Assembly (NCBI GenBank): GCA_023512835.1
Contig: CM042090.1
Coordinates: forward strand, 49,954,996 to 50,018,995
Reading direction: 5' to 3'
Source: Taxillus chinensis
Taxonomy: Eukaryota; Streptophyta; Magnoliopsida; Santalales; Loranthaceae
Length of the DNA stretch: 64,000 nucleotides
Position 1 is the stretch's first letter. The number at the start of each line of letters is the position of its first letter. Shown here piece after piece: positions 8,292 to 60,323 of the stretch. The position numbers and the translations under genes were made by a program. The notes below the pieces were generated by a model. The model was not told where the DNA came from and made no database searches. It was given only the letters and a program-made list of their open reading frames with translations.

Positions 8292-11034
8292 ATGGCACCC
8301 AGAATCTTTCTTTCCGGCGTTACTCCCGGCCATCTAGTTGATTGGAATGCTGTTTCCTGATCCTCCGGATTGGTTTCTCCAGCTTCGCCCTCTTCTTGAA
8401 GCCTCGCACATACTCAACCTGGTCTCCAATCCCATCGATCTTCTTATCGATGACATTCTTGAGTATTACCAACGGATTCGCCGCACCAAAGATTCCATAA
8501 CCTCTTATGTCCGCGGTGAATCCATCGTCATCACTCCGGCTGTTCTCCGCGCTGCTCTCCACCTTCCTCTTGGTGAACCACAGCGTCCGGATGCCGATCC
8601 GATGGCGGCTTCTATGGGGTGCACGACCAAAGGAAAGGAATACAAGGTGAAATCCTTCCAGGGTCGCTATCGATGTATGGCGACTATTCTAAGTCGATGC
8701 CTACCTGGCTCGCACATCCGCCCTGGACTCGATTCCGTATGATCTTCTACCTGGCCATGTACGGCGTCTTTGAAGGTCTTCCAATGGATTGGGGGATGTT
8801 CTTATTTCGCTTGTTACAGAATGGTCACAAAAACCATTCCTTCGGGCGCATCCTCAGCATTGTCTTCCGGCATCTTCGTCCAGACCATTTCGCCCGAGTT
8901 GATGCTGTCTCGTTTCCCTCGGCTCTTTACCTTCGTCACCTTACGCCGGACGGAAACATGACCGCCCGCCGACCCACTGTAGCTCTCCGCGCTCTCCCTG
9001 CCCCGGAACAACAAGGCAACTCTGTTGGTGACCCCTCCGACAGCCAAGCCCACGAGGTCGGTTACTGCACACCGATCCTCCCGGATTCGGTCCGTTCTTG
9101 CGCCCTCCCACTCACGGGCCTCCCAGCCAAGCATCCGTGCTGAACCGTCCGAGGTTGCGGGGCCCTCTCAGCGCAGTGCGTCTAAAGCTGTTTCCTCAGC
9201 CCCCTCTGCTGTTGGTGTCCCCACTCCCTCCACATCCGCTATAGCTGCTGCGGTTGATACCGCTATTGCCGTCGCCACCGCTGATGTCCCGGCTGCTTCT
9301 CCGGAAGCCCCCTTGCCTCCTCTACCTCAACCCCGAGATTACCTTGACCATCTCTCCGCCGTCACCTTAACGGACCTCTGGCTCCGTTTCAGCCTAGCCC
9401 ACACCTCTTCCATTCCCGACACCGATCTCCGGGTGTTTTACACCCGCAATACCCAATCCCCGGAGACTATGATCATCTGGAATCTGGACCACGGCTTTCT
9501 TACGCCGGCTGCCATTCCCGATGTGTCGTTCCCTACACCCTCCGGCCCAGTCCCTGCTACCCGAAGTCCCTCTGCTGCTAAGGCTGGACCCTCTTCTCCT
9601 GCCGCCGCGATTCCCGTGGTTGACTTGTCTGGTCAAAGCGGGTCTCTTGCTCCGGATGCCTCTCTTGCTCCGGATGCCTCCGACGCTCCGGATGCCTCTG
9701 ATGCTCCGGATGCTCCTGCTGCTGCTACTCCTGCGGACTCCTCTGCCCACCGCACTCCTGCTCCTGTTCATGCGGGGGAGTCCTCCAAAGCTCCCGAGTT
9801 AGCACTTGGGCGTGCCTCTTTTGGCACGGTCCACTCCGATCTTGTGCTTTCCGCTCGGTGGACCGCCATGCCCATGCTCAAAGCGCCCAAATTTCTGCCA
9901 TCGCTGTCAAAGTTGATGCCCTCGGCGCCCAACTACTCTCCGCCCTCACTGACTCCTCCACTTCCATTGAGCAGAAAATGGATCTTGTCGCCACCTCCGT
10001 TCATTCACTATCTACTTCCTTCGCGGATCTGGCGCATACGATGGCTCGTCCTCCCGTTGCTTCCCGGCGATCTGCCAAACCGGGGGAGAAAGTGTCATCC
10101 GATCCGTCTACTCCTTCGCGCCCCACAACCATCTTCCCCGGACCGAGAAGCGGCTTGCCACTTCGGTGCTTCAGGGAGTTCAAATTCCCAAACGAAGCCG
10201 CTTCTCTCAACCAAGCTCCTCTCGCACCTCGACCTCCTCCTCCATCCTCCTCATCCGCGGTGATACCTTCCTCCCATCCTATGCGGAGTTTGACCCGTCC
10301 GATGCGGATGGAAGCTTGCGCAAGGCAATGAAATCCTATCTTGCGTCTTCTCTGAGAGAAGATGTCTTTCGAAATGTATCCTTTCTCTCCGGCCGACATT
10401 CGGACTCTTTGTTCGGAGAAAGGACTCTTTACTACGAGAAGACATTGACAACTTCTCGAGGGCTGCTAAGATGGAGATGAGGCCGTTTCCATCTCTTTAC
10501 GAAGATGGGCACTTGTTTGAAGTTCTGCCATGTTGGAATGAGGGCTATCTTCCCGGTGTGGAGTTAATTCAGACTTACATTGACGGAACTGCTGAGGATA
10601 GCAAGCCATGGAAAACTCTCTCAACCATCCTCATTCCGTACCGGATCATGTCGCCACACTTCATGATGGCTGTCTTCATGATTCGGTCCAAGCGAGATGA
10701 TTCTCATCGATTCTCATCAGGTTGTGGAGCACTTCGTTAGGAAGAATCAATGGGAACCTAAGTGTCTCGGACTAACGAAGCCGTGAAGAAAGCCGGATTA
10801 TATGAAGAGTTGGGTATCACACCCCTGCGTTCGACCGAGAAACTCAAGGCGACATTCCGGGCAAGAAGCAAGTGCCACAACAACCGGATGGAGATAGGCT
10901 GCGGAGCCTTTGTTTGTCATTTCATCAAATCGTTCTTAACTGTGGACAAACATTGGAGCCAACACTCCACCTTTACGATGCGAGCAGACAATGGAGCTAA
11001 GAGAGAAGGCGGCAACTATGATCTTCAAGTATAG
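8292..11034 (+). pseudogene. Element I accessory gene: transposon-associated domain plus Ulp1-like protease, broken
   Basis: The gene starts at an ATG in a strong plant context (GCCATGGC). Its N-terminal domain shows ITPAVLRAALHLP (about 8530-8570), FQGRYRCMATILSRCL (8656-8705), MDWGMFLFRLL (about 8785-8815) and FPSALYLRHL (about 8913-8943), with a frameshift near 8700. A Pro/Ala/Ser-rich linker with repeated DASDAP units (9640-9720) and a helical, coiled-coil-like stretch (9858-10060) follow. The C-terminus shows the Ulp1/C48 pattern: His in IMSPHFMMAVF (codon 10657-10659), Asp in ILIDS (10709-10711), Gln in VPQQPDG (from 10872) and Cys in GCGAFVC (10900-10902), with frameshifts between blocks. 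Ulp1-type proteases cleave SUMO or related tags; the substrate here is unknown. Element V at 58007-60323 has the same architecture. This is not an envelope-type protein: I see no signal peptide or membrane segment. Confidence 0.72.
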
Positions 11035-11187
11035 TAAGCCTTATGTACCTTAGTGAAAAATCTGTGTTAAGGCTGATTTGTATTTAGTTGCTGATTAATG
11101 AAATTGGTTGTGTTGCGTATTCCGTATGATATTCTTTTGCATCGCTTACCGGATCGGATTACAAAGGGTTTGGGCATATCCATAATT

Positions 11188-11195
11188 GGGGGAGA
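11188..11195 (+). other. Polypurine tract of element I
   Basis: GGGGGAGA, followed by one T and then the 3' LTR at 11197. This is the usual copia plus-strand primer position and sequence type. Confidence 0.85.
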
Positions 11196-11196
11196 T

Positions 11197-12454
11197 TGTT
11201 GGATCAAACCCAGAATTTGGATAATCTTGATAAAGCCTTATGTAATTTGATCCGAGATCTTTTGTGTTTATTTGATCATTGCGAAGGTATGTCACTAATC
11301 CAAAGATGCACTCGTGAGAGCAAAGCTAAGGACAGGATACATAATCCTGATCCGGACAAGAGTTAGTGTCGTCAAACACTTGGTAAATAACCAAGTAACA
11401 AATACATACGGAATAAGGAACAATCCTACGGACTAAGAACTTAAAGGATAAGTGCGGAGTAAGGAAAATAAGTGCGGAGTAAGGAAAATAGATGCGGAGT
11501 AAAGAAACCAGATGCGGAGTAAGGAATCCGGACTTATTACTCGCCCGGAGTAAGGAACTTACATACGGAGTAAGGAACTTACATGCGGAGTAAGGAACTT
11601 ACATGCGGAGTAAGGAACTTACATGCGGAGTAAGGAACTTACATGCGGAGTAAGGAACTTACATGCGGAGTAAGGAACTTACATGCGGAGTAAGGAACTT
11701 ACATGCGGAGTAAGGAACCTACATGCGGAGTAAGGAACTTACATGCGGAGTAAGGAAGCGCTGACACGGACTAAGGATTCCATCTGAATAGATACGGAGT
11801 AAGCAACCACTGACACGGAGTAAGGTTCCGAGCTTCATCAACTACGGAGTAAGGAAAATTACACCGGACCAAGAAGACACTGCTCCAACAAAACCGCATT
11901 TAAAGTTATCAGCTCGTGCTGTCCCGATGTAAGACGAATGCATTTAGAACAAGAAGAATCTTACACGTGGATCATCCGGATATGTGGACACAACCTTAAT
12001 TGTATCTCGGAACTCACAAAGACACTTATACTCTTCAAATCCAAGATCTTGAGCTCCAAAATCCGCAGCAGTCAAGGCAGACAGATTACCGAGGGATAGT
12101 TAGTGCGGAACGCATTTCGGAACTTCAAGTTCCAAGGTTGTCTCTTAGGAATGTTTTGTATAAATATTCATACTTATACTTCATGTAAATGTGTGCTAAG
12201 GCGGACAAAAAAAATAGAAAAGGAACTTGGCTAGTGTGTGAGTTCATTGTTGTAAACAGAGTGTAAGAGAGTGTTTGCTTCTATTTTGTTGTAATCACCT
12301 TGTGATAATAAAACAAAATACTTCCACTATCTGGTTATCTTCCGCAGTGATTCTATCACTTAAACTAGATAAGTCTTTGTGTTTTGAGAGAAAAGAAAGA
12401 GTTCGAATAAGAGCCTATTCACCCCCCCCCCCTTTAGGCTCCAAGGGACCATCA
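11197..12454 (+). repeat. 3' LTR of element I
   Basis: The LTR is 1258 bp and matches the 5' LTR closely. It contains the same 20-bp minisatellite at 11452-11757, but here nearly all units are the ATGCGG form instead of alternating with ATACGG. The C-run near the end is 11 bases. It ends CCATCA at 12454 and is followed by the TSD TGGGT. Confidence 0.93.
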
Positions 12455-15947: not shown

Positions 15948-15952
15948 CTACT

Positions 15953-17253
15953 TGTTGGATCAAACCTAGAATTTAGATGATGCGGATCAAACCCTATGTA
16001 ATTTGATTTAAGATGTTTCATGTTTATTCTAAGTCTGTGCAGAAGATAAAACTTTAATCTGAACGTACTCCTGTAAGAGCAAAGCAAATGACAGGATATA
16101 TAATCCTGATCTGGATTATTATGAGTGTCGTCAAACACTTGGTAAATAACCAAGTCTTCATCCGGAGTAAGGACTCTCCGTACGGACTAATCACTTGACA
16201 AAATGACTAAGGAATCCGCGCTTTTGTTGTTGATTGGACTAAGTCATTTTATGCGGAATGAGAATCCAAGTCTACACCTCATACAAAGTAAGAGAGATTT
16301 ATTGCAGAGAAAGAATTAAGTCTTTCACTCCAGCTGTCTAAGGAAAAGAAGATACGGACTAAAGAATCCGAGTCTTTCATTCAAGCGGAGTAAGAAATGA
16401 CTGATGCAGAGTAAGGACAACTGATGCGGAATAAGGAATCCGAATCATTACTCAAGCGGAGTAAGGAACTCACGCAGAGTAAGGAAGCATTGATGCAGAA
16501 TAAGGATTCCGCATAGCTACCTCATGCGGAATAAGGAAGCACTGACACGGAATAAGGATTTCAAGACTTCATGTACATGGAGTAAGCAATAATTGACACG
16601 AAGTAAAGATCCGAGCCTCGTTGATACGGAGTAAAGAAATCTACACCGGAATAAAAAGACGCTACTTCAACTTATCCATACCGCATTTATGATATCAGCT
16701 CGTTGTATTCTGATGTACGACAAACTCATTGAAGATCTAAACTGTCCTACACGTGGAGCACTCGGAGATGTGGATGCAGTCCCAAATGCAATTGGAATCA
16801 AGCAAAGTAATTCAATTCACTTATGCTTCCAATATTTTGAGCTCCATATCCGAAGTAGTTATAGTAGAAGCATTTTCCGATAAGAACTTAATGTTTTCAC
16901 AGTGCTCGGAAAATACAGTTCAAAGTTAGATTCTTAGGATGTCTATATATATTTGTAGTGTTGTACATTCAACAAACGCACATACAAAGGAAGAACTGAT
17001 ACGCGCATGAAGTAGGCTGTTGTACAAGAGCTCATAGAGATTATCAACGCCAGTGTGTGTAATGGTAAAACTAAGTGCTATTGTAATGATCTGTAATTGC
17101 TGCTTATTTTGTTGTAATTATCATCACATAATACAGCAAAATACTTCCACTATCTGATTTTACATCTTTTAACCGGATTGTGCTATACCTGTGAGAGCAA
17201 AAGAGTTTTGATTTGAGCCTATTCACCCCCCTCTAGGCTCCTAGGGACCAACA
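15953..17253 (+). mobile_element. Solo LTR of a copia element related to element I
   Basis: A 1301-bp LTR, TGTTGGATCAAACC...GGGACCAACA, flanked by CTACT at 15948-15952 and 17254-17258. It is clearly of the element I LTR family but much more diverged. The same GCGGAGTAAGGAA minisatellite is present in decayed form (about 16155-16650), and the C-run near the end is only 6. No internal sequence remains, so it arose by LTR-LTR recombination. Confidence 0.88.
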
Positions 17254-24861: not shown

Positions 24862-26178
24862 AATACACCACACTTGAACCATTGCTTGTCCTCAAGCAAA
24901 AACCATACAAGCATGCAAAAAATAAAATAAACACGCAGTCAAACGGAAGAAAAATAAAATAACAATCAAGGAGAATCATGGTTTCCTAAGCATGCAACTC
25001 TATCATGATGAAATGGGAATTTAAGCATCAAAATGAGTCATAGCTTAGTTCATTCATGTCCATATCCCTAGTCCAACAACCATGCAATATCACCACTTAA
25101 ATTTCAAATATGAGCAACCAATCCATGATAAAATAGCACCTAGTTTCCCTTTAAGTTCTTACCAAGGATAAGCAGCCTCACTCAAATATAATAATTCTCA
25201 AGCCCAATACCTATCAATGAACAATGGATGGAAAACTCTATCTCTACACTCGCCATCAGCTATTGATTAAGGACTTGCCAAGCAATCATGAGAGTTCCCT
25301 ATTGTGCTCATCAAAGAAAACACACTCTCTATTCTACTTTATTTGAACTCACACTCTATTCTAATAACTAAATAAACAAAATCATGAGCTAAAGAATTGA
25401 GCTCAACACTCTCAAAACAAAACACAATTCAGCCAATGTGGCTTCACAACTAAATAATCACACATAAACATGAAGCCAGTGTGGCTTTTATTCTGATTTT
25501 TTTTTCTCTGTTTTTTTTAGTAATAACCTTACAAGGTTGCATTTTATGCTCTCCCTTGATGGATTATTCACTCTAAATAAGACATAACATAACACATAAA
25601 TAAGACTGATTTTTTTTAATGCATACCCCTTTTCAAAATGTGATGGGCTTTTTCCAAAATGTGCATCATAGCCTTTTCCAATAATATCACACAATAAAGA
25701 AAAGAATGCAAAGACAGTCACAATGACTTAGAGGTCTTGCATCCTAACTCCACACACCAAACACTGAGCACTAATAAGTAATCACATGCTTACTTGACTC
25801 CTACCATTAAATAACCAATGTTGAATGCAAGAAGAGTATCAAATCAAACTATTACCCAAAAACCATGAATGTCACTCAAGGGCTAAAAAGAAGCTGTTCT
25901 CATTTTTCATTTCTTTTTCACTCAACTTTAAGGGTTACTTAGGTCTATCATAGCATTTCATGCTCAACTAATATTCAAAACTCAGCTCCAAAAACATGGT
26001 GATATCATTCAAAAGATAAAGACATGATCAAACCAATTCAGAGCACATTTTAACTACTTTAACACCCTTATCACAACATGATACTAACGTGGCATAAAAA
26101 TTAAATTTTAAGCCAAAATTGTATACTTAATATCCATGTCTCTATATGCAAATCATTCAAGCAAACAACTCAAACAAT
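24862..26178 (-). other. Element V 3' UTR, left part
   Basis: 1.3 kb of AT-rich sequence with no credible ORF. A PPT-like purine stretch (in element sense AAGTGTGGTGTATT) touches the LTR at 24862-24875. It ends in ACAAT, the TSD of the Ogre insertion; the same UTR continues at 57852. Confidence 0.6.
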
Positions 26179-26539
26179 TGTCATCACTGGTTTTCGTCCG
26201 GGCTCTTTTGGGGTGAGCTCAAACTAAATCAATGGTGAGAAATTTTAGAGTCGCCACCTGTCACGCCCCGGATTTCCAACCCGAGGAAACCGGTACGTGA
26301 CTCCCCTTTTACCCACACGGAGGGCAAAGGGGTTAGGTTACAAACCAAGAACTGAATATTTTAAACTTTCACAACACATTCAAGAAAAGTAAAGTCCATC
26401 AACCAAATCAGTCTTTATTACAAAGTCCTCTTTTTCGATCCATCCCCATTGGGGTTACATCGGTTCCCATAAAAATAACATAAACAAGAAAGTAGATAAG
26501 GTCTTCCACCTTGGGGTCCCACCTAACGCCTGTAGGTTC

Positions 26540-27363: not shown

Positions 27364-27535
27364 CTTAAAACAGATCTTCCCTGCTCCCGCACTAAACGCC
27401 GTCCTTCCCACGCAAGATGCTCCGGCCCGCAAAGAACCAAGAACTCCCCTTCCTTCTCTCTCTCTAGCTCTCTCTCTCTACGACGGCCGCAAAGAATCGA
27501 AGAGAACCCTAAACCTAAAACAGAGGGCTTCTCCT

Positions 27536-45400: not shown

Positions 45401-45518
45401 GCTTATTTTTGCATGGTTCCCTTGGTTTTGACATTCTAAGGAACTTTCTCCAAAGGACCATGTTGAAATTCTGAGTATTTTGGCCTATATGGGTGCGGAA
45501 AGGTGCTAACTTGTGTAA

Positions 45519-45597
45519 TCAAAACTACGTCGTTTTGATGCTTGGGATTCACTTAATCAAAACTACGTCGTTTTGATGTTGTGTTGTCTATATAAGG
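45519..45597 (+). promoter_or_regulatory. Promoter of solo LTR B
   Basis: Two TCAAAACTACGTCGTTTTGA palindromes (45519-45538, 45557-45576) are followed by CTATATAAGG (45588-45597) and then a GA repeat leader (45645-45665). Confidence 0.7.
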
Positions 45598-46189
45598 AGG
45601 AGAAGCCCTCTTTTTAGGGTTAGGGTTTGTTGCTCCACCAGCCGTCGCAGAGAGAGAGAGAGAGGGAAGGAGAGCTCCTGGTTGCTGCCGGGCGTCTTGC
45701 GTGGGTGGTCGGTGACTCGTGGGTGGACGGCGTTCGACGTGGGATCGGGACTTTGCTGTGTTGTTGCGTTTTACTTGAGGTAGGGATTTTGTTCTTCCTA
45801 AATCCTCCTCTCGTCCTAGGGTCCTAGGGCAGAATATTATATTATTTATATGTAAATTCATATAGGTGTGACCTCCTATATGAATGTTGGCCTTCAATGG
45901 CGATTTTGGTGTTTCTGGTGTTTGTGTGATGCATAAAACGTGTTTGATAAAATGCCTGCACGACATGCCTGCTACATGTTTGATGAAATGCCTGTGTGAA
46001 CTTAGCTGTGTGTATATGCCCATTAAGTGTTTGGTAATATGTCCGTGTGACTGGACTTGTGGTTTAGTGTATGTATGTATGCTGGATGTTTGCTCTATGG
46101 CCTGAATGGGTTTGTGCGCTTGTGAACGGGTGCTCACCAAGTGTTTGGTTGTATGCTTGAGTGACCTTGTGTGTTGTGTGCTTGACTGT

Positions 46190-46285
46190 GGTACTTGGCC
46201 TGAAGAGGCGGTTAAATTACTTGGCCTGAAGAGGCGGTTAAATCACTTGGCCTGAAGAGGCGGTTAAATCACTTGTGGTTAAAGT
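46190..46285 (+). repeat. 26-bp minisatellite in solo LTR B
   Basis: Three and a half copies of a 26-bp unit containing TTGGCCTGAAGAGGCGGTTA. It is at the same LTR position as the unrelated 37-bp array of solo LTR A. Confidence 0.85.
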
Positions 46286-46432
46286 GTTAGCCTGTGTGGC
46301 AGTGGAGGATTGTAAATTGCGGATGTGGTTGTTATTATGTTTGTTGAAATTATTGTAACACAACACTGCACTTGTACACATGGCATGTAGATGCTAGGAA
46401 CATGGGATGGGTTGGGAGACATGATCCCTTCT

Positions 46433-46515
46433 TTTTTGTTTTTTTTCTCTCTTCTTTTTTTTTTTTTTTTTTTTTTTTTGTTTGTTGGGTTGGTTTGTTT
46501 AAAAAAGAGGGGGGA

Positions 46516-46549
<34 letters not shown>

Positions 46550-46558
46550 GGGGAAGTT
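46433..46558 (+). repeat. Poly-T-rich junction between LTR B and element C
   Basis: Two long T runs (around 46457-46479 and 46519-46548) separated by G-rich words (GGGGGGAAG, GGGGGAAG). This stretch replaces the expected LTR B sequence and the left TSD of element C. It may be a real filler or an assembly error. Confidence 0.7.
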
Positions 46559-47115
46559 TTAAAGACTCGTATTTGGGTAGTTTTGAGAGAGTCATTCTGT
46601 GGGAATGTAACTATCTGGACGGTAGTGTAGCCGTCGATGCGAGCATTTTGACTGTACTTGGGCCCGATTTCGAGTCGGGGCCCCGTTTGACCCGATTGTT
46701 GACTTTTTGGGGTTTATTGGTTGACTTTGCGTTTGAGCGAGTATTTGAGTGTGATAATATCTAAACAGTGTTGTGCTCGTTATTTCGAGCGTTTTGACAA
46801 GAATTTGACTCAATTTGGAGTTCGTGACCTCGGGAGGTCAATTATTGCATTCGGGTCAATTATTGCTTTGGGAGGCCAATTATTTCCAATTATTCTTTGG
46901 GAGGCCAATTATTGGCAACGGTATATATATAATTAAGAACTGCCTTATCTCTTTAATTTCCAATTATTGGTGCGTGCGAGTAGAGAGAGAGAGAGAGAGG
47001 TGAAGAGCGTAAGTTGAGCAAGAGAGAGAGAGAGAGAGAGAAGGTGAAGAGCGTGAAGAGCTTTCTTGGTGATTTTGGGGCGATTGGAGCTCGTGGATCG
47101 CAAAGAATCTTCCAG

Positions 47116-48780
47116 GTAGGTGATTCTAACTCCTTATATGATTCATAGTAGGCTTAGCATGCTTAATTTGGGTGAAATCATGGAATTTGGGGGTGAACCT
47201 TAAGATTTGGGGGAAACCCAATTTTTGGTTGAATCTTCTGATTTAAATGCATAAAAGAGGTATTTCTGTTGATTACATGAAATTTAGAGTTATTTAAGAC
47301 GTGTAATGGGGTGTATATAAAAATAAATGTGTTTATGAGTGTTTGGGGTTGCTGGGTTGCCGTTCTAGCTGAGAAAATTGGCAAAAACGACGATGAACAG
47401 TGTTTTTCCGGGACTAAGTGAATAGTATTTCCGGGACTAAGTGAACAGTGTTTTTCCGGGACTAAGTGAATAGTGTTTTCTGGGACTAAGTGAATAGTTT
47501 TTTCCTAAGTGAATAAGTTGGGACTAAGTGAATAGTGTTTTTCCGGGACTAAGTGAATAGTGTTTCCTGGGACTAAGTGAATAGTGTTTTTCCGGGACTA
47601 AGTGAACTAGTCCGGATCGGCTAGTCTAAGTGAATTAGTCCGGATCGTAGTCCGGAGGAATTAGTCCGGATCGTAGTCCGGAGTAGTTAGTCCGGAGGAA
47701 TTAGTCCGGATCGTAGTCCTGGAGGAATTAGTCCGGATCGGAGTCCGGAGTAGTTAGTCCTGGAGGAATTGGTCCGGAGGATTGGTCCGGATCGGTAGTA
47801 GTCAGCAGGAGTGGAACAAGAGTTCCGTAGCATCGGTCCGCAGGAGTGGAACAAGAGTTCCGTAGTAGTCGGTCCCGCAAGAGTGGAACAAAGTAGTTCC
47901 GTAGCATTAGTCCGCAAAGATCAAATCCGTGGAAGTGAAACAAGAGTTCGTTCAGCAGGTAACCGCACCGCACCGGACATTTACATTGTAAACCATTATG
48001 CCTCTCCACATTTAATACTTAAGTTACAATGTAAATAACGAAATACCCCCCCATTTGGATTCAAAGAAAAATACTAGAAAAATTAATTCCCATTATTTCA
48101 AAATGTGAAATTTGGGATTTAGTGTAAAATCTCGGAAAAACCCAAAAGTTCGTAGTGGTGAATTTTTGGAAAGTGGGGTTAGACATCTCGGAAAAATCCC
48201 CAAAAATCAGATTATCTTATTTATGCTATGGGAACCCAATGCCGGGACTTTTGATTTCAAGAAAATAGCCGCTATGGGTACTTCCTTCATAAATCAAGGA
48301 TTGAGGATTTACTTGTGGAGACCGGCTACGGTTCCAAAGGAAATGTCGAGAATGACATGCCATACAAATGTTAGTATGTTGGTGTGAGGTATTGGGGCAT
48401 GGACTCCGTGACTTGTTTGGGTTCTCACCGTGATGCACCAATGGTGCTATGTGGTTGACGTGGCAGGCATATGCACCGATGGCGGGCCTGTGTGGGCGAC
48501 CGTGGGCCGGGCATATTGCGCCGTGGACAGGCTAAGGCCTGAGTTGAGCCGTTGAGCTCGTGGAGCTAGGGCTGAGTGCCCTGAGCCGGGATCCCATGGA
48601 GGATTGTGGACAAGTTGTCCCGATGTTTGTTGCGGCCGAGTCCCGATGATTGTGCACACTACACGGTGCACGAGTACACTGAGCATATAGTATAGACTTA
48701 TATGTGTTGCATGATGTGGAGTGTTAGGGTCACCTACCGAGCTTGTCGCTCACCCCCTACTTGTTGCTTACCCTTTTCAG
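47116..48780 (+). other. Predicted leader intron inside 5' LTR of element C
   Basis: A strong donor TTCCAG|GTAGGT (47116) lies about 165 nt after the presumed start. A branch-like GCTCACC (A at 48752) and a pyrimidine-rich tract lead to TTTTCAG|GTG (48779-48780). The 3' LTR has the same signals at 55198 and 56854-56855. In a transcript it would shorten the leader before the PBS by 1.67 kb. Prediction only. Confidence 0.5.
47398..47900 (+). repeat. Minisatellites in 5' LTR of element C
   Basis: The first array has a unit of about 25 bp built on GGGACTAAGTGAATAGTGTT, about 8-9 copies. A second array of short AGTCCGGA-based units (GGAATTAGTCCGGATCGTAG) follows, then a third with GGAGTGGAACAAGAGTTCCG. 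Copy numbers differ in the 3' LTR (55482-55990). Confidence 0.85.
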
Positions 48781-49142
48781 GTGTGACCCGAGACTAGTGG
48801 AGGACTTTCTTCCAGGAGGACGCCCACTACTCGATGTATGATACGATTATATTCTCGTATTGTTTTATGTGATATCCCGGACATGGGTCCGTGGACAGCT
48901 TGTATTTGCATACCGTATGATGTGAGGTCTCGTATGATTGTTTGACTCTTTGTATGCATGATGATATATGGGAAAGTACAAGATTACCCTTGATGTATGA
49001 TCGTACAGATTGCATATTTGAGACAAGACCAGCGGTGTAGTCTCTATTGGTGCTAGTCACCAACCCCTTGACCTTTCGGGTGCGGGCAAGGGGAAGTCAT
49101 GTACCCGGTTCCGGTTCCCTGGAATTCGGGGGCGTGACAAGT

Positions 49143-49154
49143 TGGTATCAGAGC
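49143..49154 (+). other. Primer binding site of element C
   Basis: TGGTATCAGAGC, a perfect initiator-Met PBS, three bases after the LTR end. Confidence 0.9.
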
Positions 49155-49588
49155 ATGGTCTAGTGGACCTAGGTTAGTGAAGGGTGGTTAATTGATTCCA
49201 TGTGACTTGGAAAACTGTAGGGAGGGCGCCTGATCAACGCAGTCTTTACATGTATTCTAGGTTATTTTGGTGTCAGTTAGATCATCCTAGGAGCATACAT
49301 GGGGATGGGGTGCATTGCTAGTGGTATGATTGTGTGCATATAGGGCACTAGCTTGTCTTTGTGTGTGATGTGCTTGTATGTGGTGCCAGGGATGGCACAT
49401 GGCCGTGAGAGCCAGGACTTGATTGTGGTGTACCCTGAGGGGTGACACGATGCTATATGCATGGTATGGACCTACGGGGGTCGTGTGGTGAGAACCTACA
49501 AGTCAGTTGTGCCTTTGATGGCTGTTTGTGCTAGCAGTGCTAGTATTGATTGTTTGTTCTTTGTTGTTTGTTGATTGTAGCCAGTGTG

Positions 49589-50406
49589 ATGGCACCACCG
49601 AGGAGGGTTGTCCGAGGCCAGGGTCCGGTAGAGGAGCCCACGATAGAGTCGGGGCACCAGGGGCAGCAGAGCCCGCAGCAGAAGTCATCAGCTCCCGTTG
49701 TGGGACCTGATTTGACGCAGGTGTTGATTCAGTTGCAGGAGGCCATGCAGGGTATGCAGGGCTCGATGAGGGATATGGCTAGAGAGGTGGATGAGTCGAA
49801 GAGGCAACAGGAGCCTCGGCGGCCACCACAGCCTCGAGAAGCAGGAGGCGAGGGTGGTGCAGGATGTGCACCAGCCAGGAGGTCGTGGTAGAGCCAGCAC
49901 GACGAGGGAGTGGACTGGGCCGCGCAGTTTTGAAACACGCACCCAGGACTTTTGAGGATGGTTCGCGGCCAGAGGTAGCCGAGGACTGGATTAGATGGAC
50001 AGAGGACATCTTTGAGATGATTGGGGTGCCAGATGAGGAGCGGGTGCGCGTGGCGACGCACTATTTGTTGGGTATCCCACGCAGTGGTGGGAATCCACTA
50101 GAGCTGTCCATGGCGACGATGAGCTGGAGAGAGTTTGTTGAGCGCTTCTTTGGGGAGTATTTTCCCAGCTCGTTGCAGTATGCTCGACGTAGAGAGTATT
50201 ATGAGCTTGTGCAGGGTAGCATGAGTGTGGGGGAGTATGTGCAGGCCTTCACCGATTTGGGGCGGTTTGCTCTGGAGTCTTGGGAAAAGGAAGGCCGGAA
50301 GACGCAGGACTTCATTCAGGGCTTGAGGCCATCTTTGAAAAGACAGCTTGAACCGATGCGGTTGACCGGCCTATCGGGAGGCGGTCGACAAGGCGATCAT
50401 TATTGA
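49589..50406 (+). pseudogene. Element C gag
   Basis: The start at 49589 gives MAPPRRVVRGQ, with a Gln-rich helical part to about 49830. A frameshift near 49870 leads to the Retrotrans_gag domain: PEVAEDWIRWTEDIFEMIGV, RVATHYLLG, SWREFVERFFGEYFPSSLQY and MSVGEYVQAFTDLGRF. It is a capsid precursor. It overlaps the next block by a frame change near 50390. Sequence 49155-49588 before it is leader without genes. Confidence 0.88.
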
Positions 50407-51408
50407 GCGAGGTCGGGATCGGGCGAGAGCCCGAGGCCGGGCGGTTCGGCAGGTCCGAGCAAGAAGAGGCAGAGTGGGGAGAGCAAGGCTCCTCGGCTGA
50501 GAGGAGGCAGGTGCAGAGGGTTTCCAGCCAGGCGGTGGGCCCCCGGGAGAGTTCAGCCAGCAGGAGGCCAGGGACCTGTTGGAGTTGTGGTTTGACCGGG
50601 CATGTCTCGAGAGACTGCCCAAGGAAAAAGATGACTTGCTTCCGATGCGGGAAAGTGGGGCATGGAGCTAGGGAATGTGTTACCCTTAGCTCAACCAGCA
50701 GTGTAGGCCCTCGTCCGAGAGATCACGGACAGAGGAGTGGGGCTCCGTCTCAGAGGTCAGTGCTGCCGGCACAGAGCACGCAGACGCGACCTGCGGCACA
50801 GGGCCTCGCCGGGAGGCACAGGGTCATGTTGATCGGCGGGGCAAGGCCCCAATGGGCCAGGCTAGTGGCAAGTGGACCACGAGGGAGGACTTTTGCCCTT
50901 ACCAGGAGAGAGGCGAGGTTCCACCAAGGGACGAGGCAGAGCAGGACCTTCGGTGGTGAGAGGTACCATTATCATTTCTCATACTATTTGTTCGGCTTTT
51001 GATTGATACTGGTGCTACCCATTCTTTTATTTCGTATGCTACGGTGGTTGGCTTGGAGTTAGCCCAGGAGACAGTGAGTCGGTCCGATGGTTGCTTCACC
51101 TTTGGGTGGAATTGTGATACTTGAGAGTATCCGTCGTGCTTGTCAGGTAACACTTGGGGGGTGTTAACCTGTTGTGTGATTTGTATATCATGGAGTTAGA
51201 TGATTTTGATGTTATCCTGGGTATGGACTGGTTGGTCTCCGTGGAGGCCAAGATTGATTGTTTTCGACGGCGTGTGACGTTCCTCACACCAGAGGGCACG
51301 CGGGGTGTCTTTGTGGGTGAGTGGACCGAGGAGGCATGCAGGTTGGGACCTTTGAGGCATGGGTGGGGTGATGTGACCCACCAGTTAGCCAGCCTTGACG
51401 TTGGTTGA
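50403..51408 (+). pseudogene. Element C nucleocapsid and protease
   Basis: Two intact CCHC zinc knuckles are encoded near 50570-50680: CWSCGLTGHVSRDC and CFRCGKVGHGAREC. After a Ser/Arg-rich linker, the aspartic protease active site LIDTGATHSFIS lies at about 51000-51035 in another frame. Its C-terminal signature FDVILGMDWL is at about 51200-51230. At least two frameshifts separate these blocks. The fragment has everything expected for the family but no single frame. Confidence 0.87.
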
Positions 51409-52735
51409 CAGGAGGAGAGAGGGGAAGGCTGTTTTGCCACCCATTGTAGATCAGTTCCCGGATGTGTTTCCCGAGGACTTGGTCAGTTTGCCACCCGTGA
51501 GGGAGGTAGAGTTTTCAATCGAGTTGTTGCCAGGGACAACACCGATCAGGTTAGCGGCCTACGGGATGGCACCGACAGAGCTTAGAGAGCTCAAGAGACA
51601 GATAGATGATCTATTGGCACGAGGCTTTATCAGGGGAGTAGCTCACCATGGGGCGCTCCAGTGGTGTTCGCCAAGAAGGCGGATGGTTCACTTCGGTTGT
51701 GTATAGACTACCGGAAGCCGAACCAGGTGACTGTGAAGAACAGTATCCATTGCCGAGGATCGATGACCTGTTTGATCGGTTTCGAGGTGCAAGATGGTTT
51801 TCCAAGATAGACTTGAGGTCCTGGATACCATCGCTTGAGGGTTAGGGAGGCAGATATCCCTAAGACCGCGTTCGGTTGTCGTTATGGGCATTATGAGTGG
51901 CTTGTGATGCCGTTTGGGCTCACGAATGCTCCAGCGAAGTGTTTATGGGATTGATGAACCAGGTGTTCGCTCCATATTTAGATATGTTCGTTGTGGTGTT
52001 CATCGACGATATCTTGGTCTATTCAGCGACCAAGAGGGAGCATGAGGAGCATTTGCAGGTGTGTTGCGGACCTTGCGGGAGCATCGGTTGTACGCGAAGT
52101 TCACGAAATGTGACTTCTGGTTGCAACAGTGCACTTCTTGGGGCATGTGGTGTCTTCAGAGGGTATCACGGTGGACCCCGAGAAGATTGAGGCGGTCATG
52201 TCGTGGAAGAGGCCTACGAATGTGTTTGAGATTCGTAGCTTCCTTGGTTTGGCAGGCTATTATCGGAGGTTCGTGGAGGATTTTTCCCGGTTGGCAGCTC
52301 CTATGACACACTTGACTAGGAAGGGAGTTCCTTTCATTTGGTCCGATGCATGTGAGAGTGCTTTCATGGAGTCGAAGGCACGATTGACCTCAACACCTAT
52401 CTTGATTCTCCCACAGGAGGGTGTGCCTTTTGAGGTGTATTGTGATGCTTCCAGGGGTGGGTCTTGGTTGTGTGTTGATGCAGACTCGGCAGGTGATTGC
52501 TTATGGATCTAGGCAATTGAGACCACATGAGCGAACTATCCCACGCATGATTTGGAGTTGGGCGCAGTGATCTTTGCTTTAAAGAGCTGGCAAGCATTAT
52601 CTCCTTGGGGGAGAAATTTGTGGTGTATACGGACCACAAGAGCTTGCAGATATCTTCTCTCGCGAGACCTGAACCTTAGGCAGAGACGGTGGGTGGAGTA
52701 CCTGCAACAGCTTTCGCTTTGATATGATGTATACC
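51395..52735 (+). pseudogene. Element C reverse transcriptase and RNase H
   Basis: RT starts with FPDVFPEDLVSLPPVREVEF. Blocks for CIDYRK (about 51700), [17 protein letters not shown] (about 51885-51935) and the catalytic FIDDILVYS (about 51997-52025) are in different frames. [20 protein letters not shown] and [15 protein letters not shown] (52129-52300) form the thumb/connection. RNase H is reduced to pieces: CDASRGG (about 52440), LGAVIFALKSW-like near 52560 and a YTPGKGNVVADA segment near 52730. Multiple stops are present. Confidence 0.88.
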
Positions 52736-52984
52736 CCTGGGAAGGGTAATGTGGTGGCAGATGCTCGAGTAGGAAGAGCAGGGGCCGTGGTGGCCCACTG
52801 TGCCATTAAAGAATGGGAGATGATGGGTCGGTTGGCGGCGATGAGGTTGCAAATGGTGACCAAAGGAGGGGCGAGGGACCCTCGGTGTTGTTGTCGCGGT
52901 CCCTGAGTTGCAGCGCAGGATCATAGAGGATCACTGGGGGACATTGATTGTGAGGTCATCAGAGACAAGATTCAGACGGGGCAG

Positions 52985-54375
52985 GCATCTTCTGATTGGA
53001 CTGAGGATGCTGAGCATATATTGAGGTATAGGGGTCGCCTGATAGTTCCCACTTCTCTTCAGGAGGAGGTTCTTCGGGAATTTCACCAGTCGAGGTTAGC
53101 TGTACATCCTGGTGGGACCAAGATGTACCATGCCGTGAGGAGGCAGTATTGGTGGCCAGGCCTGAAGAAGGCTGTTGCTGATTTTGTGAGGAGGTGTTTG
53201 ACCTGTCAGCAGGTCAAGGCAGCACCTGAGATCAGCTGGTGAGTTGCAGTCATTGCCAGTGCCAGAGTGGAAATGGGACCACGTGACCATGGATTTTGTC
53301 ACTGGACTTCCTCGTTCCAGGGGGACACGACACGATATGGGTAGTTGTCGACCGGTTGACCAAATCGGCACATTTTATTCCGATTCGAGAGACGGACCCA
53401 GGAGGACTTTGGGACAGAGGTATATTGATGTTATTGTGCGGTTGCATGGAGTCCCATTGTCTATTGTATCTGATCGGGATGCGAGGTTCACATCTCGCTT
53501 TTGGAGACAGTTCAGCAGAGCCTTGGGTACTAGGGTGAACCTCAGATAGCCTTTCACCCGCAGACGGATGGTCGATCGGAGCGGACGATTCGGACACTCG
53601 AGGATATGTTGCGTGCCTGTGTCCTAGATTTTGGAGGTTGTTGGGAGACTCACCTTCCTTTGGTGGAGTTCTCTTACAACAACAGTTATCAGGCCACGAT
53701 TGGGATGGCTCCATATGAGGCGCTGTATGGGCGGCCTTGTCGATCACCCTTGTGCTGGGCACAGACGGAGAGACAAGCAGTTCTCGGTCCCGATATGGTT
53801 CGAGAGACCACAGAGATAGTGCGGTTGATTCGGCAGCGCATGTTAACAACTAGCAGAGTAGCGTAAGTCCTACGCAGACCGCAGGCGTCGACCTTTGCGC
53901 TTTAGAGGTGGGTGACCGTGTATTTTTGCGGGTTTCACCGCGTAGAGGGCATCGGAGGTTTGGACGTGGATCCAAACTTTCCCCTCGTTTTGTGGGGCCA
54001 TTTGAGATTGTTACCACCGTGGGCGCAGTGGCTTATCGGTTAGCTTTGCCACCGGAGTTGGCTCGAGTACATGATGTGTTCCATGTGTCTCGGTTGCGAC
54101 GGTATCACCCAGATCCTTCTCATGTGTTGGACTATCGCGAGATAGACTTGGGCGATGATGGTGCCGTTGTTGAGATGCCGGCACAGATTTTGGACAAGGG
54201 GGACCAGGTCTTGCGAGGCAAGACGATCCCACTAGTTCGGGTGTTATGGCGACACCGAGGCATGGAGGAGCAGACTTGGGAAAAAGAGAGCCAGGATGCG
54301 GGTTCTTCATCCCGAGCTGTTCGAGGACGATCGGTCCGAGGTGGGGCGGATGTGAGGACCTTCCCCGAGGTATGA
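52985..54375 (+). pseudogene. Element C integrase with chromodomain
   Basis: The zinc domain is HQSRLAVHPGGTKMYHAVRR followed by CLTCQQVK (53090-53215). The core has the first Asp in [11 protein letters not shown] (about 53280-53310), the second in [14 protein letters not shown] (about 53460-53505) and the Glu in a [14 protein letters not shown] stretch near 53570-53595 in another frame. [20 protein letters not shown] and [15 protein letters not shown] follow. The tail has a GPF module ([20 protein letters not shown]) and [13 protein letters not shown]. It ends in a chromodomain-like region (about 54169-54310; [19 protein letters not shown], then TWEKES). Chromodomains bind histone marks and steer integration to heterochromatin. 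It is frameshifted at several points. Confidence 0.9.
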
Positions 54376-54616
54376 GTTATGTTTTATGCATTTGTTTTGC
54401 ATATGTTGTTTGAGATGTGGTTTAGCTTGTTGTTTGTTGGTTGGCATCCTGGCATCGTGTGAGCCTTTTTGGCTTGTTGTGAGTTGCATTGCACCTGTGT
54501 GGTTGGTGATCATGTTGATGATCATATTTTTTGTGTCTTGTTGTTGTGCGGTGCTTGAGCTTGGATTTTGCTATGTCTTTTGGGCTTGTGTTTTATTTTC
54601 GAGGACGAAAAGTCCT

Positions 54617-54629
54617 AAGGTGGGGAGGA
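54617..54629 (+). other. Polypurine tract of element C
   Basis: AAGGTGGGGAGGA directly precedes the 3' LTR at 54630. The 240 nt between the integrase stop and this tract hold no gene. Confidence 0.85.
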
Positions 54630-57214
54630 TGTAAAGACTCGTATTTGGGTAGTTTTGAGAGAGTCATTCTGTGGGAATGTAACTATCTGGACGGTAGTGT
54701 AGCCGTCGATGCGAGCATTTTGACTGTACTTGGGCCCGATTTCGAGTCGGGGCCCCGTTTGACCCGATTGTTGACTTTTTGGGGTTTATTGGTTGACTTT
54801 GCGTTTGAGCAGTCATTTGAGTGTGATAATATCTAAACAGTGTTGTGCTCGTTATTTCGAGCGTTTTGACAGTAATTTGACTCAATTTGGAGTTCGTGAC
54901 CTCGGGAGGTCAATTATTGCATTCGGGTCAATTATTGCTGGGAGGCCAATTATTTCCAATTATTGCTGGGAGGCCAATTATTGGCAACGGTATATATATA
55001 ATTAAGAACTGCCTTATCTCTTTAATTTCCAATTATTGGTGCGTGCGTGTTTGAGCAAGAGAGAGAGAGAGAGAGAGAAGGTGAAGAGCGTGAAGTTGAG
55101 CAAGAGAGAGAGAGAGAGAGAGAAGGTGAAGAGCGTGAAGAGCTTTCTTGGTGATTTTGGGGCGATTGGAGCTCGTGGATCGCAAAGAATCTTCCAGGTA
55201 GGTGATTCTAACTCCTTATATGATTCATAGTAGGCTTAGCATGCTTAATTTGGGTGAAATCATGGAATTTGGGGGTGAACCTTAAGATTTGGGGGAAACC
55301 CAATTTTTGGTTGAATCTTCTGATTTAAATGCATAAAAGAGGTATTTCTGTTGATTACATGAAATTTAGAGTTATTTAAGACGTGTAATGGGGTGTATAT
55401 AAAAATAAATGTGTTTATGAGTGTTTGGGGTTGCTGGGTTGCCGTTCTAGCCAGAAAAATTGGCAAAAACGACGATGAACAGTGTTTTTCCGGGACTAAG
55501 TGAATAGTATTTCCGGGACTAAGTGAACAGTGTTTTTCCGGGACTAAGTGAATAGTGTTTCCGGGACTAAGTGAACAGTGTTTTTCCGGGACTAAGTGAA
55601 TAGTGTTTCCGGGACTAAGTGAATAGTGTTTTTCGGGACTAAGTGAACAGTGTTTTCCGGGACTAAGTGAATAGTGTTTCCGGGACTAAGTGAACTAGTC
55701 CGGTCTGGGACTAAGTGAATTAGTCCGGATCGTAGTCCGGAGGAATTAGTCCGGATCGTAGTCCGGAGTAGTTAGTCCGGAGGAATTAGTCCGGATCGGT
55801 AGTCCGGAGGAATTAGTCCGGATCGCTAGTCCGGAGTAGTTAGTCCGGAGGAATTGGTCCGGATCGAAAGTCCGTAGTAGTCGGTCCCAGGAGTGGAACA
55901 AGAGTTCCGTAGCATCGGTCCGCAGGAGTGGAACAAGAGTTCCGTAGTAGTCGGTCCGCAAGAGTGGAACAAGAGTTCCGTAGCATTAGTCCGCAGCATC
56001 AAATCCGTGGAAGTGAAACAAGTGTTCATTGCGGGTGCAACTGCACTGCACTGGACATTTACATTGTAAACCATTATGCCTCTCCACATTTAATACTTAA
56101 GTTACAATGTAAATAACGAAATACCCCCCATTTGGATTCAAAGAAAAATACTAGAAAAATTAATTCCCATTATTTCAAAATGTGAAATTTGGGATTTAGT
56201 GTAAAATCTCGGAAAAACCCAAAAGTTCGTAGTGGTGAATTTTTGGAAAGTGGGGTTAGACATCTCGGAAAAATCCCCAAAAATCAGATTATCTTATTTA
56301 TGCTATGGGAACCCAATGCCGGGACTTTTGATTTCAAGAAAATAGCTGCTATGGGTACTTCCTTCATAAATCAAGGATTGAGGATTTACTTGTGGAGACT
56401 GGCTACAGTTCCAAAGGAAATGTCGAGAATGACATGCCATACAAATGTTAGTATGTTGGTGTGAGGTATTGGGGCATGGACTCCGTGACTTGTTTGGGTT
56501 CTCACCGTGATGCACCAATGGTGCTATGTGGTTGACGTGGCGGGCATATGCACCGATGGCAGGCCCGTGTGGCGACCGTGGCCGGGCATATTGCGCCGTG
56601 GACAGGCTAAGGCCCGAGTTGAGCCGTTGAGCTCGTGGAGCTAGGGCTGAGTGCCCTGAGCTGGGATCCCATGGAGGATTGTGGACAAGTTGTCCTGATG
56701 TTTGTTGCAGGCTGAGTCCTGATGATTGTGCACACTACACGGTGCACGAGTACACTGAGCATATAGTATAGACTTATATGTATTGCATGATGTGGAGTGT
56801 TAGGGTCACCTACTGAGCTTGTCGCTCACCCCTACTTGTTGCTTACCCTTTTCAGGTGTGACCCGAGACTAGTGGAGGACTTTCTTCCAGGAGGACGCCC
56901 ACTACTCTGATGTATGATACAGTTATATTCTGTATTGTTTTATGTGATATCCCGGACATGGGTCCGTGGACAGTTGTATTTGCATACTGTATGATGTGAG
57001 GTCTGTATGACTGTTTGACTCTTTGTATGCATGATGATATATGGGAAAGTACAAGATTACCCTTGATGTATGACTGTACAGGATTGCATATTTGAGACAG
57101 CACCCGCGGTGTAGTCTCTATTGGTGCTAGTCACCAACCCCTTGACCTTTCGGGTGCGGGCAAGGGGAAGTCATGTACCCGGTTCCGGGTTCCCTGGAAT
57201 TCGGGGGCGTGACA
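54630..57214 (+). repeat. 3' LTR of element C
   Basis: 2585 bp. Same signals as the 5' LTR: TATA near 54990-55000, donor at 55198, acceptor at 56854-56855. The GGGACTAAGTGAATAGTGTT array has about 10 copies. A GA-rich AGCAAGAG block in the leader is duplicated (55046-55125) in a different way from the 5' LTR. Confidence 0.9.
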
Positions 57215-57851
57215 ACTGATGTAACCCCAATGGGGATGGATTAAAAAGAGGACTTTGTAATAAAGACTGACTTTGTTATTGGTTTGTGGACAGATTTGAT
57301 GGACTATATTTTTCTTGAATGTGTTGTGAAAGTTTTAAAATGTTAAATTCTTGATTTGTATCCTTACCCCTTTGCCCTCCGTGTGGGTAAAAGGGAAGTC
57401 ACGTACCGGTTTCCTCGGGTTGGAAATCCGGGGCGTGACAGCCTACATAGGCATTTTGAAGAGTTTCGCATGATCACTTTTGCGGGCAGTTTGACCAGGG
57501 GCATTGACCGTCTTTTGGCAAGTTTGACTTTTTCCAACGAAAGTTGTTTTGGCCATAACTTCTTCATTTTAAGTCCGATTTGAGCTCGGTCAAGTGCGTT
57601 GGTCTCCAATTTTCATCCTCCATCACCTGGTGTTGGTCTTGGGGCGCTTCAAGGACTTGTAGCAAAAGTCATTAATTTTGAACTCCCCCATCCGTGTCAA
57701 TTGTATCCATCTCGTGCAGATTGGGGTAGACCATTCCTTGGAAGTATGGGATCATTGTGGACCTGTTCAATAAGGTGTATGGCATGGGCCGAAAGGTATA
57801 TCAAATGGGGTTAGTATGTCCGACCCGGACAAAATAGGGTCCTACAACAAT

Positions 57852-58006: not shown

Positions 58007-60323
58007 TTACCTCTCAGTTGGCAAGCTGTAATAGTAGATGACATTGGCCACCATTCGTCGCACCTGAGCCACAAAGTCAACCGACGTCTCGCCGCGCACT
58101 TCCCAAGTTTCCTTCCCTTGCAGAATAGCCATCATGTAGTAGCAAACAAAGATCCCACAGCTGAATTGGTCAGGCTGCTGAGGGATTTCCATTTCGTTGA
58201 GGTGAATAAGAGGGAGCTTATCCTGCAACAATCCTTCTTGTCTCATCGCATCCTTGATTCTTTTTATGAGCCCATGAACAAGCCGTCTCTTTCTTCTGGT
58301 GAACCCTTCGCCTTGGCTTGGATCATAAAGCACCGCATGCCCTGCACTCAAATCCACACGCACCAAGACATAGTGACGATCAATGTGCACAGGGATCAAC
58401 ACCTCGTGCATACCATGCCAAGGACGGTGCCCTTCATTCTGCCCATTTATACGCTGGCGCCACACACTTTCAGTCAAAGGTTGCTCATAAAGCTCGCACA
58501 AAGATAATAGAGGTATATTGGGACAGTGGGTAATTATGAGGTTCAGCCTCCACAACAAAACGCATAGTCCTGCAAAACAAGTCCACGTCATCTGAATATA
58601 GATATTCATCGCCTAAAATCCTTTGAAGGACAAACGAGGTGAAGAGGTCCATGTCCCTTGCAAATCGAGCCCTTAACACCTGAGAATTAATGAAGTCTTC
58701 AAATGCTGCTTGACTTTCGGCAGATGATAAGGCTGGATTAATGATTAAATAGATAGGAGGGCCAAGAAGGTCTTCAGGTTCAGCAGGCATGTATGTACCC
58801 CAAGAGACAGGATGTATAACAGGTACAATAGCCTGAGAATATGCAGGATCAGTAAAAGGCTAGAAGGGTGAATACCCTTTTGCTGGCTCTTTCTCCTCTT
58901 GAGGCTGATAGTAAGATGGCCTAGCTGAAGATTCTGGTTGAGGTGGATCCGCCTGGGCTGGATAAGAAACTTCAGGGGATGGAGAGGGTTCTTCATCAGA
59001 TATCTCCACTATAGGAGAACGTTTTGATGCTTTCCTCTTGCTCAAGGCCTTCCAGATATTGCCTAGGAGGCCTTTGACTTCTTTGTTGTCCTTCCTCAGG
59101 GCTTCCACCTCGCGCTGGGTTCTGGCATTTGCCTCCCTGAGATGCTGTGTTTCTTGCCTCCAAGCTTCGGTAGATGCAGCAGGAGGAGCTTCTGGGACTT
59201 CCCATGCTCTAGGAGATGCATGAGCAGCTACGTCTGGGGCCTCCCATGCTCTGGTTCTAGGTTGTGAAGTAGCTTGTTGGTCTCCAGAGATGAGGGCCAT
59301 TAATTCCTCAAATTGGGCACTAGTGATGTGCCCATTAGTGACTGCCCAATTGATGACCTCCACTTCGCTCACCACCTGCCCACTAATGCCTTGAAAGAAA
59401 TTGAAAATATCTTCTTTGTGTACATTGAACTGCATGTACATGGCAGTGAGTCTGTATAGAGTCTGCTTCCTTTGATCCAAATTAGGAGAGGTCTCCCTTA
59501 CAAAGTCAGTGGATCGCTCCACATGAACACTGTGCCTAGCGGGCTATGATGGAGGAGGAACATTGGTTGCCCAATGACCTCTGGTACTGATCCCCAAACC
59601 TCCTTCAGCATGCAATACTCTTAACACCCAGTGAGAAGGAAAAGTGATGGTATCCATGGAGGAAAAATGCAAAGTAGGCATGCTTTGAAATATCAAACAC
59701 AAAAATCTGCCATTTATCTGCTTTGATGAGTTTTTCTTCCACCATTTAAAAATGGTAGTGGCCCAATCCACATTTAGCATATGATCAATGCTATACATCA
59801 ACTCCAGGTGTGGCTTAGGCACACTATCTATCCCACTGGTTTGAATCAATAAGCATCTTCCTACCAGGTAAGCTAGGCATCTAAATCTTCCAACAAAACC
59901 ATTCTTGGTATACTGCCTTCTACTTTGAAATTTTCTAGCATAGTTGCATGCAGTACCAAATTCTCCTAGGCTTAGCTGAGGAAGGCTATCAATGGGTGCA
60001 GGGAGGTTAAAGCAATGTCTAATAATTTCAGGGGTTATTCTGACATAAACCCCTTGCACAACCCCTATTAGTTCATCCTCACTCACAGAGACAGATGCAT
60101 AAAATTCTTGTAGGGCAGAATAGGAAATAGCTGGCTAGGCAGATACTAACCTTTGTAAGCCCAGATTTTGAATTTTAAGAGCCACCTCTCTAGCCCAGCC
60201 CAGTTCTGAAGCCTCCAAAGTCTGCATATCAAGAGCATGCCCCAAGAGTATCTCCTCCTTAGGTTGGCTATCAGCGCTAGGTGAGTGCACCTCCTCCTGG
60301 CAAGTCCTCCTTGTGCGCACCAT
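58007..60323 (-). pseudogene. Element V accessory gene: transposon-associated domain, coiled coil, Ulp1-like protease
   Basis: The gene starts at the ATG at 60323 (context AAAGATGG; MVRTRRTCQEEVHSPSADSQ). One frame runs to about 58510, broken only by three TAG stops (60135, 59544, 58860). A single frameshift near 58510 leads to the C-terminal domain. Domains: an N-terminal plant transposon-associated domain with VRITPEIIRHCFNLPAP, FVGRFRCLAYLVGRCL, VDWATTIFKWW and ITFPSHWVLRVLH (60050-59580); a Trp/Pro/Ala-rich linker; a coiled coil (AWRQETQHLREANARTQREV, about 59170-59060); an acidic Pro-rich stretch; and a Ulp1/C48-like protease with His in RHYVLVRVD, Asp in AVLYDP, Gln in IPQQPDQ and Cys in FSCGIFVCYYM (about 58375-58120). 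It is probably a SUMO/ubiquitin-like protease. It occupies the Athila env-like position, but no membrane segment or signal peptide is visible. About 770 codons. Confidence 0.82.

Follow-up and report, generated by a model that had tools for sequence, protein, structure and literature searches.

The stretch of the Taxillus chinensis genome analysed here (64,000 nucleotides, C7:49954996-50018995; hereafter, the window) contains long terminal repeat (LTR) retrotransposons, two of which, a Sirevirus-type Ty1/copia element (element I) and an Athila-type Ty3/gypsy element (element V), carry the same accessory gene. In both, the gene follows pol in the same orientation and encodes an N-terminal domain that is joined by a linker to a protease domain of the C48 (Ulp1) type; neither of the two copies in the window is intact. 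What such envelope (env)-like genes do in plant retrotransposons has been asked for a long time; a catalytic domain common to copia and gypsy genes offers a testable answer and also points to gene flow between superfamilies. The features of the two elements are as follows (window coordinates; RT, reverse transcriptase; RH, RNase H; IN, integrase).

804-12454, plus strand: element I, a Sirevirus-type Ty1/copia retrotransposon with an LTR pair, target duplication TGGGT, polypurine tract (PPT) TGGGGGAG followed by AT/TG, a sequence resembling a primer-binding site (PBS), TATCGAGC, poly-C and RVT_2
4885-6616, plus strand: RT and RH pieces of element I (Pfam RVT_2, E-values 8.9e-5 and 3.9e-18)
8292-11034, plus strand: accessory gene of element I, broken and spread over several frames
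8338-8963, plus strand: N-terminal Transposase_32-like domain of element I, in two pieces (8338-8739 and 8754-8963) in different frames
10561-10980, plus strand: C48-like protease region of element I, broken, matching element V and the C48 profile
61402-63612, minus strand: pol pieces of element V (RT, RH, IN), Athila-type Ty3/gypsy (RVT_1 2.5e-17, RT_RNaseH 5.4e-30, Integrase_H2C2 2.5e-15, rve 6e-16)
58007-60323, minus strand: accessory gene of element V, interrupted by stops within the frame and by a single frame change; its first in-frame Met is at 60323
59547-60134, minus strand: N-terminal Transposase_32-like domain of element V (PF20167, 25.1 bits, E 1.8e-5, below the cut-off of 45)
58863-59543, minus strand: linker piece of element V, coiled-coil-like as read by eye
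58488-58859, minus strand: stretch of element V that probably begins the C48 domain, assigned by eye, sharing its frame with the N-terminal pieces and without a Pfam match
58010-58612, minus strand: C48 catalytic domain of element V (PF02902, 46.2 bits, cut-off 20.7; SENP1, 4.5e-5)

Similarity between the two accessory genes

The earlier note, made by reading the sequence by eye, had proposed that the two genes share an N-terminal domain, and this proposal is borne out. Two pieces of the element I domain, although located in different frames, match the element V domain in order, with E-values of 4e-12 (8338-8739) and 4e-11 (8577-9140) in single BLASTP comparisons and Smith-Waterman scores of 111 and 101, where 500 shuffles for each gave means of 35. 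A profile built without element I retrieves its N-domain pieces with E-values of 2.5e-14 and 1.1e-8. Among the 818 open reading frames (ORFs) of at least 40 amino acids (aa) in the window, the element I pieces rank first and second against the N-domain of element V, scoring 107 and 101, the next ORF reaching 41.

For the protease, the note had claimed C48-like motifs in both genes, which holds in full for element V, where the domain exceeds the Pfam cut-off and the motifs start at 58378 (RHY), 58327 (YDP), 58183 (PQQPD) and 58162 (SCG). The element I pieces have no Pfam C48 match even at E 10 and no protease match in PDB, and their motifs are dispersed over three frames, with the His and CG-x-FVC in one, a candidate Asp in the second and PQQPD in the third. 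Nevertheless, this region scores 86 against the C48 domain of element V (shuffles, 34 +/- 4.6) and is matched by a C48 profile made without it (6e-7 and 2e-4, E-values that refer to a small set of pieces). Element I pieces again rank first and second of the 818 ORFs against the C48 domain of element V (56 and 50), the second barely exceeding the background (48). The linkers of the two genes show no significant likeness: the element I linker ranks third of 815 ORFs for one linker piece of element V, and an out-of-order ORF from the element I region ranks second of 818 for the other. The accessory genes retain about 30% identity, whereas the method used for the ORF ranking detects no clear similarity between the two pols (best z 2.5 among 35 pairs).

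Classification of elements I and V

The RT of element I belongs to the Ty1/copia type (RVT_2, 3.9e-18). Its RH piece (5858-6283) has no Pfam match, and relatives 65-71% identical to it lie beside RT at three other loci of the genome (L031, L032 and L034, see below). The LTRs (804-2075 and 11196-12454) are 97% identical and the element is flanked by a 5-bp duplication, TGGGT. Sireviruses are marked by a terminal PPT, AGGGGGAG, followed by AT/TG, and by several PPT copies in the linker (PMC2829016), and sequences resembling these marks are largely present, though mostly not exact: TGGGGGAG matches AGGGGGAG at seven of eight positions, with AT/TG next to it, and the linker holds six PPT-like octamers with at most one mismatch (one of them exact), compared with 0.5 in shuffled sequences. 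Three of the octamers, at 7068-7192, precede the accessory gene, unlike the upstream PPTs described for Sireviruses, which mostly follow it (PMC2829016). Poly-C, as in the integrase signal of Sireviruses, lies near the 3' ends of both LTRs, and TATCGAGC is one base short of the Sirevirus PBS, TATCAGAGC. The accessory gene is located between pol, which ends at about 6616, and the 3' LTR. A further LTR-like stretch, 67% identical to the element I LTR, lies at 15952-16774.

Element V runs from 63612 downward on the minus strand, with the accessory gene after pol. It fits Athila because it has a gypsy RT, RH and IN, the latter two abutting without the extra RNase H that lies between them in element III, another gypsy element of the window; there is no Pfam match, and so no chromodomain match, at 61402-61809. 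Neither LTR of element V, including the 5' LTR, was found in the window, and element III interrupts element V 160 bp past the end of the accessory gene. Thus, the location between pol and the 3' LTR, which had been claimed for both genes, holds for element I, but in element V the gene is adjoined by element III instead.

Classification of the two domains

The PF02902 cut-off (20.7 bits) is exceeded by the C48 domains of element V (46.2 bits) and of two genomic copies described below, L029 (52.9) and L030 (50.3), but not by that of element I. Alignments place the catalytic His, Asp, Gln and Cys in all three of the former, and the solved relatives found for the element V domain, 13 of 13 sequences, are SENP/Ulp1 SUMO proteases. 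The N-terminal domain is called only Transposase_32-like because its matches to PF20167 lie below the cut-off; the first N-domain piece of element I, for example, gives an E-value of 0.0083. In the scanned pieces of elements I and V, Pfam detected no DUF1985, PMD or Mutator-like element (MULE) domains, and DUF1985 was not matched in eight pieces even at E 10. A search with NCBIfam gave nothing relevant.

A search of a protein database with the N-domain and C48 pieces of element V gave 25 and 50 candidates, respectively, none of them at E 1e-3. The same database yields 4161 matches for the element V integrase, so plant elements are present in it and the null result probably stems from the word and length limits of the search. 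There were no matches in plasmids (N-domain) or viral contigs (C48, N-domain and integrase), and none in PDB at E 0.01 with the L029 ORF. A PDB match of one element I piece to DnaJ (E 0.19), without a Pfam match, was taken as chance, and AlphaFold models of single pieces (predicted local distance difference test, 36.5 and 36.9) were not used.

Copies elsewhere in the genome

Both domains are abundant in the 520.9-Mb assembly. Scoring of 150 of the 869 PF20167 candidates gave 147 matches, 45 of them over the cut-off, and scoring of 150 of the 4308 C48 candidates gave 150 matches, all over the cut-off; for the genome as a whole, these numbers are minima. The 4308 first-look candidates possibly make C48 genes a very large repeat class in T. 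chinensis.

We examined ten C48 loci. Five (L029 and L035-L038) were picked by eye from the N-domain and C48 lists because the two domains share a strand there and are separated by about 1.4-1.7 kb, and five (L030-L034) only for their long open C48 frames; the latter all belong to one copia family. The N-domain precedes C48 on the same strand at 10 of 10 loci, in L032 and L034 as partial matches. The upstream pol is of the Athila type in L029, L036 and L038 and of the element I copia type in L031, L032 and L034 (54-61% identical to element I in RT and 65-71% in RH); none was seen in the stretch examined at L030, L033, L035 and L037. L029, L036, L037 and L038 form a second family (82-93% identity). 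In L029, an uninterrupted frame of 674 aa behind an Athila-type pol matches both C48 (5.6e-14) and Transposase_32 (7.1e-8). In L030, an uninterrupted frame of 1059 aa matches C48 (3.5e-13) and the N-domain of element V (2.5e-20), and this locus is 91% identical over 5441 bp to L031, which has the copia pol. Hence, in one family of each superfamily, the two domains occupy a single uninterrupted frame, after pol and on its strand, and these uninterrupted copies suggest that the accessory gene was kept until recently.

The 20 best PF20167 places (L009-L028) represent a different gene type. A gypsy pol lies upstream on the same strand in 18 of 20, that of L016 being only distantly similar to element V (38% in RT). 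Among 2477 pieces of these loci, the C48 profile had two good matches, in L022 and L014 (E 4.7e-6 or better). Both are located past the end of the sequence common to the copies and are therefore attributed to neighbouring DNA, so that a C48 domain in this Athila family was rejected. At L014 (9474-9596), the Athila copy adjoins DNA matching the C-terminal end of a copia-type C48 gene, as if inserted there.

Gene history and pol history

The N-domain tree comprised 21 sequences, namely, 11 of L009-L028 (13 have a match free of stops, but L012 and L028 were excluded because their pol was not seen), six Athila or unplaced genes with C48, and four copia genes. L035 and L037, with pol unseen, were placed by gene, and L030 and L033 by family. 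A branch with support of 100/100 separates the genes with C48, whether from copia or Athila elements, from the 11 Athila genes without it, element V grouping with the copia genes. By contrast, the RT of element V is equally close to both Athila sets (up to 79% identity to copies without C48 and 73-78% to those with it), so gene type and pol disagree. The tree splits Athila elements by gene type, indicating that the gene does not follow pol. The N-domain tree, taken with the RT comparison, thus shows a gene history departing from that of pol, but does not fix the order within the C48-type group; its branches are long and the bootstrap had not settled. The C48 tree included 10 sequences and no outgroup; element I (too short) and L037 (partial) were excluded, and L034 was retained though partial.

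Provenance and possible function of the gene

Exchange between superfamilies fits these data best. With a probability of roughly 0.5, we favour the reading that a single Transposase_32-like plus C48 gene, located after pol in Sirevirus-type copia and Athila-type gypsy elements, likely moved between the superfamilies as a unit and encodes a predicted protease that would remove SUMO-type modifiers from host silencing factors. The accessory gene may have passed between elements, for instance, by template switching between co-packaged RNAs. By analogy with the VANC proteins of MULEs, which bind their own transposon family, the N-domain would bring the protease to the chromatin or particle of the element itself, where it would strip SUMO and lower silencing in the next round of copying. 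The basic stretch KRKASKRSP, noticed by eye in the element V linker, could serve nuclear entry. That the gene product is active as a SUMO-type protease, acts in the nucleus and counters silencing is thus predicted by analogy. More doubtful is the broader proposition that the 'env-like' genes of SIRE and Athila elements include a shared, travelling counter-silencing module. In it, a Transposase_32-like domain would tether a deSUMOylating protease; the module would have been handed from one superfamily to the other, and MULEs would have arrived at it in parallel.

Several results weigh against the favoured reading. The PF20167 gathering cut-off of 45 bits is reached by neither element V (25.1) nor element I (16.5) nor L029 (33.0), and the N-domain of L030 does not match this family at E 0.1, as compared with 103.1 bits for L009. 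Genes of the two types can hardly be aligned, with local identities over 36-38 columns only in the pairs checked, and the C48-type N-domain profile reaches at best E 0.0036 among the 2477 pieces of the other type; the 100/100 branch (length 2.58) therefore partly reflects great distance. The sample of Athila elements without C48 comprises a single family. Within the C48-type group, the order is not fixed and the four copia sequences may form one clade (approximately unbiased test, p-AU 0.317). Finally, the C48 tree divides by superfamily with 100/100 support, the sampled copia family on one side and the Athila sequences on the other, so that a single old transfer or a single shared source would suffice.

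Given the open order within the C48-type group and the possible copia clade, the trees are compatible both with exchange and with capture from a common source. The latter alternative, in which both superfamilies independently captured the composite gene from the same third party, either the host or a MULE/KIU-like DNA transposon, appears possible, though less probable than exchange. It agrees with the division of the C48 tree and with published Ulp1 capture by MULEs (PMC13317346, PMC2836005), and the 4308 C48 candidates imply that sources may be plentiful. However, the two domains occur in identical order and position in both superfamilies, and the scanned pieces lack Pfam matches to DUF1985, PMD or MULE domains. 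The earlier note had favoured either exchange or repeated capture of a host gene; a shared gene with a history unlike that of pol is upheld, but the C48 tree, in which the sampled copia family and the Athila sequences each occupy one side, gives no sign of repeated exchange or of frequent recent transfer.

Another possibility, which we regard as improbable, is that the C48 domain acts not on SUMO but on the proteins of the element itself, in Gag or particle maturation, as do adenovirus-type proteases of the same clan. Such elements should already own an aspartic protease for maturation, and the solved relatives found for the element V domain are without exception SUMO proteases, although Ulp1-like cysteine proteases are common to viruses and Polinton/Maverick-type elements (PMC10175614).

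An envelope-like role in cell-to-cell movement is very unlikely. The location after pol and the name long in use for SIRE and Athila genes (PMC3599292, PMC7264820) are compatible with it, but a C48 domain with catalytic residues is present instead. In a hydropathy scan of 11 pieces, the only strongly hydrophobic stretch (60330-60386, minus strand, Kyte-Doolittle 2.31) lies in frame immediately ahead of the first Met of the element V gene, and would count only if translation started upstream; the highest 19-residue mean in the other ten is 1.64, in a stretch that is probably out of frame. The view that the products are unlike membrane env proteins is thus sustained for the scanned pieces. Vertical descent from a common copia/gypsy ancestor, which would account for the gene in both superfamilies, is still less credible (the earlier note had also called it unlikely), because the pols of elements I and V have diverged beyond recognition by the method used, whereas the gene remains about 30% identical, and related Athila copies carry a different gene type. 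Chance similarity, conceivable given the badly broken element I with its Pro/Ala/Ser-rich linker, is refuted by the top two ranks among 818 ORFs for both domains, their collinearity and the uninterrupted frames elsewhere in the genome.

Relation to known systems

A close parallel is with the Kaonashi/KIU genes of MULEs, in which VANC, also an accessory transposon gene product, carries a transduplicated Ulp1 domain; for some Ulp1-bearing MULE proteins, a link with hypomethylation has been reported for related copies (PMC13317346). Elements I and V do not belong to this group: they are LTR elements rather than DNA transposons, and VANC bears DUF1985 (PMC5735166), which Pfam does not match in their pieces. 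In Ginger1 transposases, an Ulp1 domain likewise occurs in a mobile element, but these are animal DNA transposons in which it lies C-terminal to the transposase itself (PMC2836005). The additional 487-aa ORF(+) of sunflower Athila 14 comes from an Athila element and, by a weak match, from the same Pfam family; unlike in element V, no C48 domain is named in the accessible description, and the ORF resembles the L009-L028 gene type (PMC11728184). The ORF3 genes of bdelloid rotifers provide a precedent for an enzymatic ORF common to unrelated retroelements and explained by exchange, albeit in animals and with a DEDDy nuclease and a GDSL esterase rather than a protease (PMC5408684).

Within plants, a 2005 study reported env-like homology only between Calypso and Cyclops-2 (PMC1142308), as far as its accessible parts indicate. 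A 2019 survey of SIRE eORF-3'F sequences distinguished 19 groups that resemble one another little or not at all at 1e-10, proposing that env-like ORFs evolve very fast or had independent sources (PMC6317226); by contrast, the SIRE-type gene described here is homologous to an Athila gene. Across 121 angiosperm genomes, 15 extra domains were recorded, all in gypsy elements, and C48 is not among the nine named in the accessible text (PMC9289625). Our literature search, with subscription journals and repeat databases mostly outside its reach, found, among the papers listed, no description of Ulp1/C48 in the 3' ORF of a copia or gypsy element from plants.

Element III and nested insertions

The element that interrupts element V is the following.

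26179-57846, minus strand: element III, Ogre-like Ty3/gypsy, with target duplication ACAAT (26174-26178 and 57847-57851), RVT_3 between RH and IN, and DUF7745 (2.2e-43)

Parts of its LTRs fall within 26179-31031 and 42470-57846, and its primer site is tRNA-Arg-like, which we take to be of the Ogre type. An ORF at 40377-41855 (minus strand) combines DUF7745 (2.2e-43) with PMD (3.2e-9); as a homologue of the N-domain it was ruled out (hhalign probability 0.1). Each LTR of element III contains one solo-LTR-like insertion, at 26259-28045 (duplication CCACC) and 45088-57440 (GCCTA), the latter split by element IV (about 46550-57215). The two insertions belong to one family, being 85% alike where compared, and lie in opposite orientation.

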